In this document: one piece after another, positions 30,117 to 35,260 of the stretch
Numbering within the stretch: position 1 is the stretch's first letter
How the letters are laid out: each line of letters starts with the position of its first letter
Source of the DNA: an uncultured Eubacteriales bacterium
GTDB lineage: Bacteria > Bacillota > Clostridia > Oscillospirales > Oscillospiraceae
DNA: 64,000 nt
NCBI GenBank assembly: GCA_900543085.1
Contig: UQQF01000001.1
Span: 1 to 64,000 of the forward strand
Reading direction: 5' to 3'
Notes under the pieces: model-generated
Database searches by the model: none
What the model saw: the letters and a program-made list of their open reading frames with translations, nothing else
Told to the model about the DNA's origin: nothing
Program-made: the position numbers and the translations under genes

Positions 30117-30213
30117 GACAGAGTAGGAACGGCGCGTTAAGTGCCATGGGATGGGAAGTTGCCCATGGACGAAGGGAGTCTATCTTCCGCGGTGCCGTCT
30201 CCGCGTCCGCTGC
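30117..30213 (+). promoter_or_regulatory. Tetrahydrofolate (THF, folT-type) riboswitch aptamer
   Basis: The conserved core segments occur in order: GAGTAGG, GCGCGTTAAGTG, GGGATGG, GGACGAAGGG, GCGGTGCCGT and a closing TCCGCTG. ACGGC (30129-30133) pairs with GCCGT (30194-30198) as the second helix. These match the Firmicutes THF-I aptamer that binds reduced folates. A perfect 18-bp palindrome (30096-30113) sits just upstream. The downstream gene is a folate ECF S component, the classic target. Confidence 0.88.
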
Positions 30214-30227
30214 CACCCAAGGCGCAC

Positions 30228-31908: not shown

Positions 31909-31937
31909 TTGACAAACGCCGGCGCATGTGTTATTTT
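31909..31937 (+). promoter_or_regulatory. Promoter of the M-box-mgtA transcript
   Basis: TTGACA (31909-31914), 17-bp spacer, TATTTT (31932-31937), just before the M-box. Confidence 0.8.
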
Positions 31938-31943
31938 GCTTAT

Positions 31944-32095
31944 GTTCGGTAGGTAAGGCTCCTACAGGGATACGGGCTGTTGCCGCGAAATGGTGGAGAC
32001 ACCATGAGCTGGTTTGAACAGGGTACATCGAACGCAAGGTGTACCATAATACAGCTTCATCGCCCTGTAGAGTTAAAGCTCAAACGAATGTGCGA
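31944..32095 (+). promoter_or_regulatory. M-box (ykoK) magnesium riboswitch
   Basis: Characteristic segments appear in order: GGTAGGTAAGGCTCCTAC, GATACGGGCTGTTGCC, a hairpin ATGGTGGAGACACCAT, an AAGGTGTACCATAATACAGCT stretch beginning at ~32037, and CCCTGTAGAGTTAAAGCTC near the 3' end. This agrees with the Mg2+-sensing M-box that turns off Mg transporter genes at high Mg2+. A terminator follows at once and an Mg-transport ATPase lies downstream. Confidence 0.92.
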
Positions 32096-32105
32096 AGGTT
32101 ATTTG

Positions 32106-32139
32106 CTCCCGTATGTTCTCCGAACATGCGGGAGTTTTT
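32106..32139 (+). terminator. M-box expression-platform terminator
   Basis: CTCCCGTATGTTC (32106-32118) pairs with GAACATGCGGGAG (32122-32134) with one G-T pair, loop TCC, then TTTTT. It should form when Mg2+ is bound. Confidence 0.9.
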
Positions 32140-32160
32140 GTTTGAAGGGAGGCGCGTTCG

Positions 32161-32247
32161 GTGGAACACGGCCAAAGTACCAGATACGATTCGCGACGGC
32201 GGCTCAACGGGCGCCGCGGACGCGCATGTCCGCGACGGCGCCGATAG
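32161..32247 (+). CDS. Candidate 28-aa arginine-rich leader peptide (mgtA leader)
   Basis: A GTG-initiated frame (GTG 32161) with ribosome site AAGGGAGG (32145-32152) at 8-bp spacing. It encodes 28 residues with about eleven arginines, ending in the RRRR run before TAG at 32245. It starts right after the M-box terminator, so it is transcribed only on read-through. No homologue is known to me. It may be a regulatory leader peptide or chance; the ribosome site is the main support. Confidence 0.35.
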   Translation: MEHGQSTRYDSRRRLNGRRGRACPRRRR

Positions 32248-32373
32248 GCCAGCGCTTACGTGACCGCCGTTTGCGAGTAAATTCGCAGACAGCGGGATTT
32301 TTATGCCCTTTTTCAGGAAAACAACGCCATGCGGCGATAACATAGATATTAACAGACAAGCGAGGTGAAAGAA

Positions 32374-32472
32374 ATGGACACGGGAAGCAGTACCGGTGCA
32401 CAATCAAAAACGTGGATGAACCCGCCCGTCGGATGGCAAATGCTTTCGCGTACCATTCTCTCACGGCATTGA
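32374..32472 (+). CDS. Candidate 32-aa leader peptide before mgtA
   Basis: ATG 32374 has GAGGTGA (32362-32368) at 5-bp spacing and runs 32 codons to TGA at 32470. The peptide includes WMNPPVGW. Its coding bases CCCGCCC (~32417) can pair with GGGCGGG (~32489), and CCGGTGCAC occurs both within it (~32392) and before mgtA (~32502), so its translation could change folding ahead of the mgtA ribosome site. By analogy, Salmonella mgtA uses a Pro-containing leader peptide. Function here is inference. Confidence 0.45.
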
Positions 32473-32557
32473 ACTGATAAAACGAAAAGGGCGGGTCTTC
32501 GCCGGTGCACTGTACACTTCCAAATTATACCCGATTTCAGATTTGGAGGTACAGAAC

Positions 32558-35260
32558 ATGATGAAGACCAATTTGAAAATGACGAATGTCCGCGCCAACG
32601 AGGCCGCCGTCAGAGCCGCCGCGATGCGCGACCGGCTCTATGCGGCGTCGGAGTATACCGCGGAAGAACTGCTCGGCCTCTACAGTGTCCCTGCGGGAGG
32701 GCTGACCGACGCGCTGGCAGAGCGCTCGAGGGACGAGTACGGAGCCAACATACTCACAAACGGGAAAAAGGATTCAGCGGCCAAAAGACTGGCGGAGGCG
32801 TTTATCAGCCCGTTCACGCTGGTGCTGCTGGCGCTCGCGGTAATATCCGTATTCACGGACATAGTGTTTGCCTCCGCCGGGGAGAGAAGCTATGCCACCG
32901 TCGGCATCATATCGGAGATGGTGATAATTTCCGGGACGCTCCGGTATGTGCAGGAGACGCGCAGCTGCAACGTGGCGGAAAAGCTCACCGGTATGCTCCA
33001 CACCACAGCCTGCGCGGAGCGCGGAGGGGTGAAGCGTGAAATACCGATAGAGGAAATAGCGGTAGGAGACCTCATCCATCTGTCCGCCGGAGACATGATC
33101 CCGGCGGATCTCAGGATACTCACGGCCAAGGATCTGTTCATAAGCCAGTCCGCCCTGACCGGCGAGAGCGAGCCGGTCGAAAAGACCGCCTGCTCCGGCG
33201 GCGCGCGCGATTCGCTCACCGACACGGAGAACCTGGCGTTTATGGGCAGCAACGTAGTCAGCGGCAGCGCGACGGCCGTAGCCGTCGCCGTCGGGAACGG
33301 CACTATGCTCGGCAATATGGCCGGAAGCCTGAACGGCGAGGCGCCGAAAACAGCCTTTGAAAAGGGCGTAAACTCCGTGTCATGGGTGCTCATACGCTTC
33401 ATGCTTATAATGGCGCCCGTGGTGCTGTTTATAAACGGCTTTACAAAGGGCGACTGGGTACAGGCGCTGCTTTTTGCCATCTCCGTGGCCGTGGGGCTCA
33501 CTCCGGAGATGCTGCCGATGATAGTTACGGCCTGCCTTGCCAAAGGCGCGGTGGTGATGAGCCGTGAAAAGGTGATTATCAAAAACCTAAATTCCATACA
33601 GAACCTGGGCTCCATGGACATACTCTGCACAGACAAGACGGGCACTCTGACTCAGGACAGGGTCGTGCTGGAGTACCACCTGAACGTCGACGGCGCGGAA
33701 GATGAGCGCGTGCTGCGCCACGCCTTCCTGAACAGCTATTTCCAGACGGGGCTGAAGAACCTCATAGACATAGCCGTGATGGCCAGACAGCAGGAGCTGG
33801 GAACCGGCGACCTGACAGAGCGGTACACCAAGGTCGACGAGATACCTTTTGACTTTGAGCGCCGCCGCATGAGCGTGGTAGTCCGGGACAGAGCGGGTAA
33901 GACTCAGCTGGTGACCAAGGGCGCGGTGGAGGAGATGCTCAAGTGCTGCTCCTTCGCCGAGTGCGGCGGCAGCGTGCTTCCGCTCACGGACGAGGTGCGC
34001 TCGCTGGTCACAAGCAGGTCTGACGCAATGAACGAGCAGGGGATGCGCGTAATTGCCGTGGCTCAGAAGACCAATCCTGCGCCGGCGGGGGAGTTTTCGG
34101 CCGCAGACGAACGGGACATGGTGCTGATAGGCTTCCTCGCATTCCTCGACCCGCCGAAGGACACGACCAAGGCCGCCGTACAGGCGCTCACCGAATACGG
34201 GGTCAGCGTTAAGATACTCACCGGCGACAACGAAAAGGTCACGCGCGCAATCTGCTCTCAGGTGGGGCTGGACGCGGAAAACATGCTGCTTGGCTCCGAG
34301 ATAGATGCGCTGACCGACGCGCAGCTGGGCAGGCTGGCCGCCGGCGTCACGGTATTTGCCAAGCTCTCTCCGGCTCAGAAGGCCAGGATAGTGAGCGTGC
34401 TGCGCGAGCGCGGCCACAGCGTGGGCTTCATGGGCGACGGAATAAACGACGCGGCCGCCATGAGGGCGGCCGACGTGGGTATATCTGTGGACACCGCCGT
34501 GGACATTGCAAAGGAAACGGCCGGCGTCGTGCTGCTGGAAAAAGACCTAATAGTGCTGGAGCGCGGCGTGATAGAGGGACGAAAAATATACGCCAATATG
34601 ATAAAGTACATAAAGATAACGGCGTCGTCCAATTTCGGGAACATGCTCTCTGTGCTCGCGTCAAGCGCATTTCTGCCGTTCCTGCCCATGGCTTCCATAC
34701 ACCTGATACTGCTGAATCTCATATACGACGTCTCCTGCACCGCCATGTCCTGGGACAACGTCGACGCGGAATATCTCAGGTCGCCGCGCAAATGGGATGC
34801 CGCCGGCATCAGCCGCTTCATGCTCCGAATAGGCCCCACAAGCTCCGCCTTCGACATAGCGACATTCCTGCTTATGTACTTTGTCATATGCCCCGCGTTC
34901 ACCGGAGGCGAGCTGTACACGAGCCTCGCCGATCCGGCGAGCCGGGCGCTGTACGTCTCGATCTTCCAGACAGGCTGGTTCGTCGAATCCATGTGGAGCC
35001 AGGCGCTGGTTATACACATGCTGCGCACGCCGAAGCTCCCGTTCGTGCAGAGCCGCGCCGCTGCGCCTGTGACCCTGCTCACGCTTGCCGGAAGCTGCGC
35101 CGTCACGGTCATACCGTTCACTCCGCTTGGCACGGCGCTTGGCTTCACGGCTCTCCCGGCGGCGTACTTCCTGTGGCTGGCGGCTATAGTGGCCGGGTAC
35201 ATGCTCCTGGCTACCGCTGTCAAGAAGTCCTATGTGCGCAGGTACGGCGAGCTGCTGTAA
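32558..35260 (+). CDS. mgtA: Magnesium-translocating P-type ATPase
   Basis: A 900-aa P3B-type ATPase importing Mg2+. In order: actuator domain with [10 protein letters not shown], phosphorylation site [14 protein letters not shown], nucleotide domain with [24 protein letters not shown], and hinge [21 protein letters not shown]; about ten membrane helices, including the MgtA-type C-terminal set ([31 protein letters not shown]). Start ATG 32558 is 8 bp after GGAGG. It is controlled by the M-box more than 400 bp upstream. Confidence 0.95.

Follow-up and report, generated by a model that had tools for sequence, protein, structure and literature searches.

The first 64,000 nucleotides of contig UQQF01000001.1, from an uncultured Eubacteriales bacterium, constitute the stretch of DNA analyzed here, referred to below as the window. 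Its mgtA gene, encoding a magnesium-translocating P-type ATPase, is preceded by a long leader that probably works as a cis-regulatory element with three checkpoints. In this element, an M-box riboswitch is followed by a transcriptional and a translational attenuator, which ribosomes would read on two short upstream open reading frames (uORF1 and uORF2), with low Mg2+ as the likeliest trigger. The anatomy of the leader, the recurrence of its parts among relatives, the competition between its pairing arms and the two-sided nucleotide changes found in Lactococcus are well supported. A first-pass annotation of this DNA had proposed a two-layer design combining an Mg2+ sensor with a leader peptide; a riboswitch followed by apparent leader-peptide control does emerge, but with three layers rather than two. 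A second terminator, an antiterminator inside uORF1 and a hairpin masking the mgtA ribosome site had all gone unnoticed.

All features of the leader lie on the forward (+) strand. It opens with a sigma-70-like promoter, TTGACA-N17-TATTTT, at 31909-31937, which is a consensus match only (10 of 12 positions, with an extended TG). The M-box (ykoK) aptamer follows at 31938-32099 and is a full match to Rfam family RF00380, scoring 103.5 bits against a gathering score of 44 and covering model positions 1-169. Intrinsic terminator 1 of the M-box occupies 32104-32141 (hairpin -22.8 kcal/mol), with a stem of 14 pairs at 32105-32135 and then a T tail. The 3' arm of this terminator can alternatively pair with the 5' strand of P1 (31942-31949, -15.6 kcal/mol), which is the usual riboswitch logic, and Mg2+-dependent termination is to be expected here by analogy with the family. 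The gene itself, at 32558-35260, encodes 900 amino acids and matches TIGR01524 with 1122.9 bits against a cut-off of 610.75. Hence the order given by the first-pass annotation, namely an M-box, its terminator, two short frames with ribosome sites and a true mgtA, is confirmed by Rfam, TIGR01524 and the sequence. Terminator 1 and mgtA are about 420 nucleotides (nt) apart, and the segment that spans this distance (32140-32600) folds better than its shuffled versions (z -3.27, 100 shuffles). Apart from the M-box, the Rfam search of the leader gave merely two chance-level matches far under their gathering scores, and no other up to an E-value of 1.

The first frame, uORF1 (32161-32247), begins with GTG behind the Shine–Dalgarno sequence GGGAGG (32147-32152) and has 28 codons, as described in the first-pass annotation. 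Its peptide opens with MEHGQ, 11 of its 28 residues are Arg, and equivalents with a second terminator are present in relatives. Within the frame, an antiterminator arm at 32191-32202 forms 12 pairs with 32264-32276 (z -2.6 in each of two passes). Terminator 2 (32264-32302, -18.1 kcal/mol) consists of 32264-32276 paired with 32283-32295, followed by ATTTTT. Folding indicates that the antiterminator pairs form before the 3' arm of terminator 2 exists, and that 32264-32276 can later switch to 32283-32295. The window therefore contains a leader frame with its own ribosome site that overlaps an antiterminator excluding an intrinsic terminator, which is the arrangement of a leader-peptide attenuator. 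In attenuators of the trp type, an antiterminator overlaps with the leader frame and competes against an intrinsic terminator. The uORF1 module shares this layout; unlike trp, it has no conserved run of regulatory codons, and its proposed signal is Mg2+. The T run of terminator 2 is often followed by GCCC, and in the window GCCCTTTT (32305-32312) is the exact reverse complement of AAAAGGGC (32485-32492).

The second frame, uORF2 (32374-32472), also has the extent first described; it has 32 codons and an ATG start behind the Shine–Dalgarno sequence GAGGTGA. Its peptide opens with MDTGSS, with Asp as the second residue, and contains NPP. Four arms surround this frame. Arm A (32362-32377) carries the uORF2 Shine–Dalgarno sequence and start, and in the free minimum-energy fold it pairs with arm B (32453-32464), formed by the last codons of uORF2 and identified by folding and by the cross-locus pairing test. 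The anti-sequester arm AS (32383-32401, codons 4-10, z -1.9) holds the first copy of CCGGTGCAC and pairs with arm C. Arm C (32494-32526), which contains the second copy of CCGGTGCAC and CTGTAC..CTTCCAAAT, is predicted by folding to pair either with AS (the ON state) or with arm D (the OFF state). Arm D (32540-32569, z -2.6) comprises the mgtA Shine–Dalgarno sequence (GGAGG, 32545-32549), the start codon and the first codons, which arm C masks; the hairpin over this ribosome site has a z of -3.28 (200 shuffles). In the OFF fold, C:D forms together with A:B, at -62.4 kcal/mol. The ON fold, with the mgtA site kept free, reaches -52.2 kcal/mol, and in it the AS:C helix is extended by 32412-32416:32498-32502 and by CCCGCCC (32421-32427) with GGGCGGG (32489-32495). 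The latter pair and the repeat of CCGGTGCAC (32393-32401 and 32502-32510), both pointed out in the first-pass annotation, thus prove to be real and to belong to one helix, in which ACCCGCCC can pair with GGGCGGGT at 32420-32427 and 32489-32496. A promoter-like match within uORF2 (32375-32404, 9 of 12 positions), resting on consensus alone, was set aside.

To place this leader among its relatives, the 80 best mgtA loci were taken from a contig scan of genomes (nhmmer initially detected an M-box in 31), and searches by family and genus added 30 loci (24 of 197 genomes matching at the set E-value), 7 (7 of 18) and 21 (21 of 299). After removal of two leaders in which the mgtA start was not found (L049, L097) and of seven duplicates (L081, L088, L028, L118, L114, L115, L132), 130 distinct leaders remained, the window included. 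The seven nearest mgtA relatives share 68-74% identity with that of the window and are mostly labelled Clostridia, which suggests that the window belongs there as well. An M-box is present in 50 of the 130 leaders; Rfam found it in 12 of 14 relatives tested, and the remaining two (L022, L012) had entered as M-box-less by nhmmer. A uORF with an acidic start lies near mgtA in 37 of the 50 M-box leaders and in 32 of the 80 without a detected M-box. All three parts score in 13 leaders, and because the near uORF is uORF1 in two of these (L002, L082), eleven carry the complete set, window included. The same modules therefore recur among relatives in varied combinations. Seven leaders (L002, L010, L057, L075, L098, L120, L129), judged partly by eye, have a module of the uORF1/terminator-2 type last before mgtA, with no uORF2 seen; the modules therefore look exchangeable. 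Choices made by eye were 53 uORF2 picks, 14 loci for footprint modeling and a list of 24 loci for terminator 2. As for direct pattern searches, neither of two exact DNA patterns for the uORF2 start matched in 398 genomes, an outcome that counts neither for nor against because the patterns are too restrictive (5 of 138 loci contain the first), and a looser pattern gave four matches in 15 genomes, each beside a known mgtA place.

The uORFs near mgtA are far more frequent than in control genes, that is, other genes with an intergenic region at the same loci. A uORF with a strong Shine–Dalgarno sequence (match of at least 6, ATG or GTG start, 10-50 codons, within about 280 nt, leaders shorter than 300 nt left out) occurs in 63 of 124 mgtA leaders against 6 of 205 controls; related loci are not independent, and all uORF figures are counts, not P values. 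The second residue is acidic (Asp or Glu) in 54 of 65 mgtA uORFs and in none of the six control uORFs. A smaller set under the same criteria gave 49 of 100 against 5 of 191, with an acidic second residue in 42 of 50 against none of five. Both kinds of frame and, as set out below, the pairing segments recur in relatives, so that the lack of conservation which the first-pass annotation had named as one ground for refutation does not apply.

At the peptide level, the recurrent feature is the acidic second residue, to which part of the set adds a further acid or an acid-Pro-acid motif. In a set of 75 uORFs, partly picked for the acidic residue and with at least two members (L033, L055) that look like ends of an upstream gene, the codons at this position are GAC (30), GAA (25), GAT (10) and GAG (5), so that all four acidic codons are used. 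Acids at both positions 2 and 4 are found in 24 of the 75, and acid-Pro-acid within the first 22 residues in 16. In Lactococcus, the peptides read MESQSINSPEPERP, MEEQSISSSDPDRP and the like. Eight close uORF pairs, comprising uORFs of either kind and two pairs that share one sequence (L047 = L115), contain no stop codon where 2.7 would be expected, a weak sign in favour of the frames. Most of the peptide seems free to drift, as would be expected if the frames served mainly as RNA.

The pairings around uORF2 are supported across loci. In 50 leaders compared with dinucleotide shuffles (near-duplicates L009 and L078 and the too-short L065 left out), the mean z was -1.91 for AS:C, -1.32 for C:D and -1.87 for A:B, with z below -2 in 22, 14 and 20 leaders, respectively. 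Two control pairings in the same leaders were no better than shuffles (mean z -0.08 and -0.07). Similarly, the mean cross-locus rank was 0.236 (AS:C), 0.264 (C:D) and 0.291 (A:B), against 0.553 and 0.505 for the controls. The best AS:C and C:D duplexes share arm C in 48 of the 50 leaders. Additionally, seven Lactococcus leaders, namely L031/L114, L047 and others yielded by that genus search, form an A:B helix of 13-17 pairs. Changes in this helix are two-sided, its inner pairs being GC-GC, GC-AU or AU-UA, and the AS:C helix of these leaders changes along on both sides. Aligning nine leaders around the window introduced too many gaps for counts of pairs, which were instead read in each sequence individually.

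Recurrence is also evident for the antiterminator. In a first comparison, in which the M-box label was a loose regular expression, the mean antiterminator z in M-box leaders was -1.57 where a uORF contained the antiterminator (12 terminators) and -1.00 where none did (7 terminators), and for terminators of other leaders it was -0.20 (n = 32) and -0.43 (n = 149). A second pass under a narrower rule covered 22 terminators followed by GCCC (mean z -1.29, cross-locus rank 0.323). The antiterminator lies within a uORF in 15 of them; z fell below -2 in nine of the 22, eight of which belong to these 15. Several relatives place a AACGATGG-like antiterminator in the frame against a CCATCGTT-like terminator arm. 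In one member of the terminator-2 list (L059), the antiterminator does not beat shuffles (z 0.7).

Under the proposed mechanism, ample Mg2+ would close the M-box and terminator 1 would halt transcription, a known mode of action ascribed to this member through its family. In transcripts that escape, a ribosome in the middle of uORF1 would cover the antiterminator arm and let terminator 2 form; a ribosome leaving or aborting within the first few codons would let the antiterminator pair first, so that transcription could continue. Folding with ribosome-covered segments, another check put forward in the first-pass annotation, agrees with this for uORF1: in 14 hand-chosen loci, antiterminator pairing was 0.81 with a footprint on codons 1-3 and at most 0.26 with one on codons 8-18. 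The model is fairly clear in that early ribosome loss would favour read-through and a mid-frame ribosome termination. L003 and L014 fit this pattern poorly, and codon 25 of the window also breaks it. This outcome follows from the position of the antiterminator arm, and it is the recurrence of the arm that matters.

At the third checkpoint, AS and D would compete for arm C, A could pair with B, and the position of the ribosome on uORF2 would set whether the mgtA ribosome site is free. The OFF state is predicted by folding to be the default of the window leader. Equilibrium folding of 58 leaders (L009, L078, L064, L096, L045 and L053 left out) gave the lowest access to the mgtA site, 0.18-0.19, with a ribosome on uORF2 codons 6-14. 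A ribosome on AS would thus shut mgtA, and a late pause would open its site; in some leaders, L076 and L058 among them, losing the ribosome is predicted to suffice for opening. The direction of ON and OFF at this checkpoint is one that we infer.

The most likely trigger for both uORFs would be low Mg2+, which may destabilize ribosomes whose short nascent chain bears early acidic residues. Such destabilization has been reported for enteric MgtL (PMC11282234) and proposed for MgtQ of Salmonella (PMC8092293). Early abortion is preferred because the recurrent peptide feature is N-terminal and because MgtL and MgtQ work in this manner. Both the translation of the uORFs and Mg2+ as the signal that they would read are suggested by this analogy.

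Several observations weigh against this reading. As regards the peptides, 41 of the 75 uORFs have neither acids at 2 and 4 nor acid-Pro-acid, the window peptides have one early acidic residue each, with Asp2 of uORF2 not followed by a second early acid, and synonymous changes across the entire frame are not in excess in the eight close uORF pairs (32 observed, 31.6 expected). Part of the nucleotide conservation in the start region is not peptide conservation, because arms A and AS extend into that region. As regards the RNA, the ON fold of the window lies 10 kcal/mol above its OFF fold in energy, and the A:B pairing of the window is no better than shuffles (z -0.3), so that support for A:B comes from the other loci. 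Antiterminator pairing recovers to 0.55-0.61 with a footprint on uORF1 codons 22-26, and the final probability of terminator 2 shifts only from 0.77 to 0.91 across footprints (14 loci each). As regards distribution, 47 of the 130 leaders lack all three parts, and L003, which has all three by eye, carries Ala at position 2. Confidence is held slightly lower because of the weak A:B pairing of the window and because its peptides have no repeated acids.

The remaining points concern the trigger at uORF2 and lend themselves to the main rival explanation, which keeps the same anatomy. A late pause near the end or stop codon of uORF2 would cover B, free A and AS and open the mgtA site, with slow termination, tRNA charging or the general translation rate, rather than early abortion, as its possible signal. 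In the 58 leaders, mean access to the mgtA site peaks at 0.36 for codons 24-27, and it is 0.26-0.27 for codons 1-3 against 0.25 when the leader is free, so that folding with a covered uORF2 does not single out early abortion. In the window, access is 0.02 when free and early and rises to 0.38-0.42 with a ribosome at codons 24-33, and a footprint placed at codon 28 yields the ON fold. By these models, a late pause would suit the third checkpoint of the window better than early abortion. Nevertheless, the whole peptide appears unconstrained and no conserved stall peptide is evident, the acidic residues concentrate in residues 2-12, and equilibrium folding ignores the kinetics of transcription and of the ribosome. 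On balance, a late pause as the trigger is considered rather unlikely, and early abortion at low Mg2+ is retained.

Another rival, in which the M-box does all the regulation and the remainder is a long spacer whose structures merely insulate the ribosome site, is improbable. Control through a terminator is the usual case for M-boxes according to the part of the literature drawn on here (PMC4072509), and 8 of the 50 M-box leaders have neither other module by the criteria used. Against it stand the acidic uORFs near mgtA, which are common in M-box leaders and in the others alike, compared with none that is acidic in 205 control genes. It is very improbable that the frames encode small regulatory proteins acting on MgtA, with the RNA pairing incidental: recurrent frames with ribosome sites do adjoin mgtA, and the enteric mgtCBRU operon has regulatory peptides, as far as the consulted part of that report describes it (PMC8092293), but no purifying selection was seen over the whole peptide and strong pairing signals overlap the frames. 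Least probable of all, and largely refuted, is attenuation by amino acid supply, in which Pro-Pro of uORF2 and the Arg-rich uORF1 would sense charged tRNA-Pro and tRNA-Arg: the NPP and the 11 Arg of 28 residues speak for it in the window alone, no regulatory codon run is conserved (PP in 4 of 65 uORF2 peptides; Arg fraction 0.07-0.39 in 11 uORF1 peptides), and some of the Arg residues (KRW, RRW) are simply what the antiterminator encodes in this frame. The adjacent Pro codons and the Arg-richness that the first-pass annotation had singled out are thus not conserved patterns, and both were rejected as regulatory codons.

Known systems provide both parallels and differences, as far as they are set out in the parts of the cited reports that are drawn on here. 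The mgtQ-mgtB attenuator of Salmonella is the closest in logic: its stems 1:2 and 3:4, which hide the ribosome site, exclude 2:3, which leaves it free (PMC8092293). The window leader likewise has a short uORF, mutually exclusive stems that overlap it and hide or free the ribosome site of a downstream Mg2+ transporter gene, with the reservation that A:B in the window alone has a z of -0.3. MgtQ has Asp2 and a second early acidic residue (PMC8092293), and such early repeated acids are absent from the window. It differs further in having 8 codons and lying within an enteric operon after mgtC, whereas uORF2 of the window has 32 codons and is situated in a 5' leader, with arm B in its own end and the module placed after an M-box and an intrinsic-terminator attenuator.

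MgtL, the leader peptide of mgtA in E. coli and Salmonella, has an early EPDP motif, undergoes ribosome drop-off at low Mg2+ and employs a Rho-dependent terminator (PMC11282234). The likeness lies in a leader peptide upstream of mgtA and in the acid-Pro-acid motif of some relatives. Unlike the MgtL leader, the window has an intrinsic terminator at uORF1 and a masked ribosome site at uORF2, and neither of its peptides has an EPDP-type N-terminal motif; the repeated-acid motifs described for E. coli are also stronger than those in the 75 uORFs (PMC11282234). M-boxes are described as acting mostly through one intrinsic terminator (PMC4072509), to which the window adds two further switches. The pe20 M-box of Mycobacterium tuberculosis is likewise followed by two uORFs and involves ribosome-site masking (PMC12810186). 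There, however, the M-box itself controls translation of the second uORF, transcription ends at a Rho-dependent site, and the peptide, stated to be specific to mycobacteria, is treated as a product in itself (PMC12810186).

Some observations lie beside these subjects. Upstream of the leader, a THF riboswitch (RF01831, 78.3 bits, window 30117-30214) precedes a gene for a folate-family ECF S component, which is an ordinary arrangement. In six loci (L015, L020, L026, L043, L061, L077), an M-box-less mgtA lies directly 3' of the apparent C-terminus of a response regulator, which we take to be of the OmpR type. Several of them have a (C/T)GCAAG direct repeat with an 11-nt period before a -10-like TATACT, and mgtA at these loci is possibly under the control of the adjacent two-component system. 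Seven genomes (G035, G041, G071, G121, G140, G143, G200) contain paired adjacent mgtA-like genes, 62-68% and 45-49% related to the window MgtA. Near the M-box-less mgtA of L022, a Group II intron match (RF02003, 8063-8203) is perhaps a sign of mobile surroundings.

For uORFs of this kind in Firmicute mgtA leaders, no description was found among the matches listed from openly licensed literature (titles and abstract openings), which does not establish their absence in print. A broader proposal is advanced tentatively, at a strength somewhat short of probable: the uORFs may represent a large, undescribed Firmicute family of Mg2+-sensing leader peptides that evolved apart from enteric MgtL and MgtQ. 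Their control of mgtA would operate through translational masking at uORF2 and, in some leaders, additionally through an intrinsic terminator at uORF1. Stacked behind an M-box, as they would be in the window and some ten relatives, they would give a single mRNA three readings of Mg2+, one made by RNA and two by ribosomes. If true, this would account for the acidic-start uORF at many mgtA genes that have no detected M-box, and the Lactococcus leaders, which come from a genus easily handled in the laboratory, make the proposal directly testable. Should Clostridia and Lactococcus share this logic while using different RNA platforms, the ribosome itself would serve bacteria generally as a gauge of Mg2+, acting in one transcript alongside an RNA aptamer.

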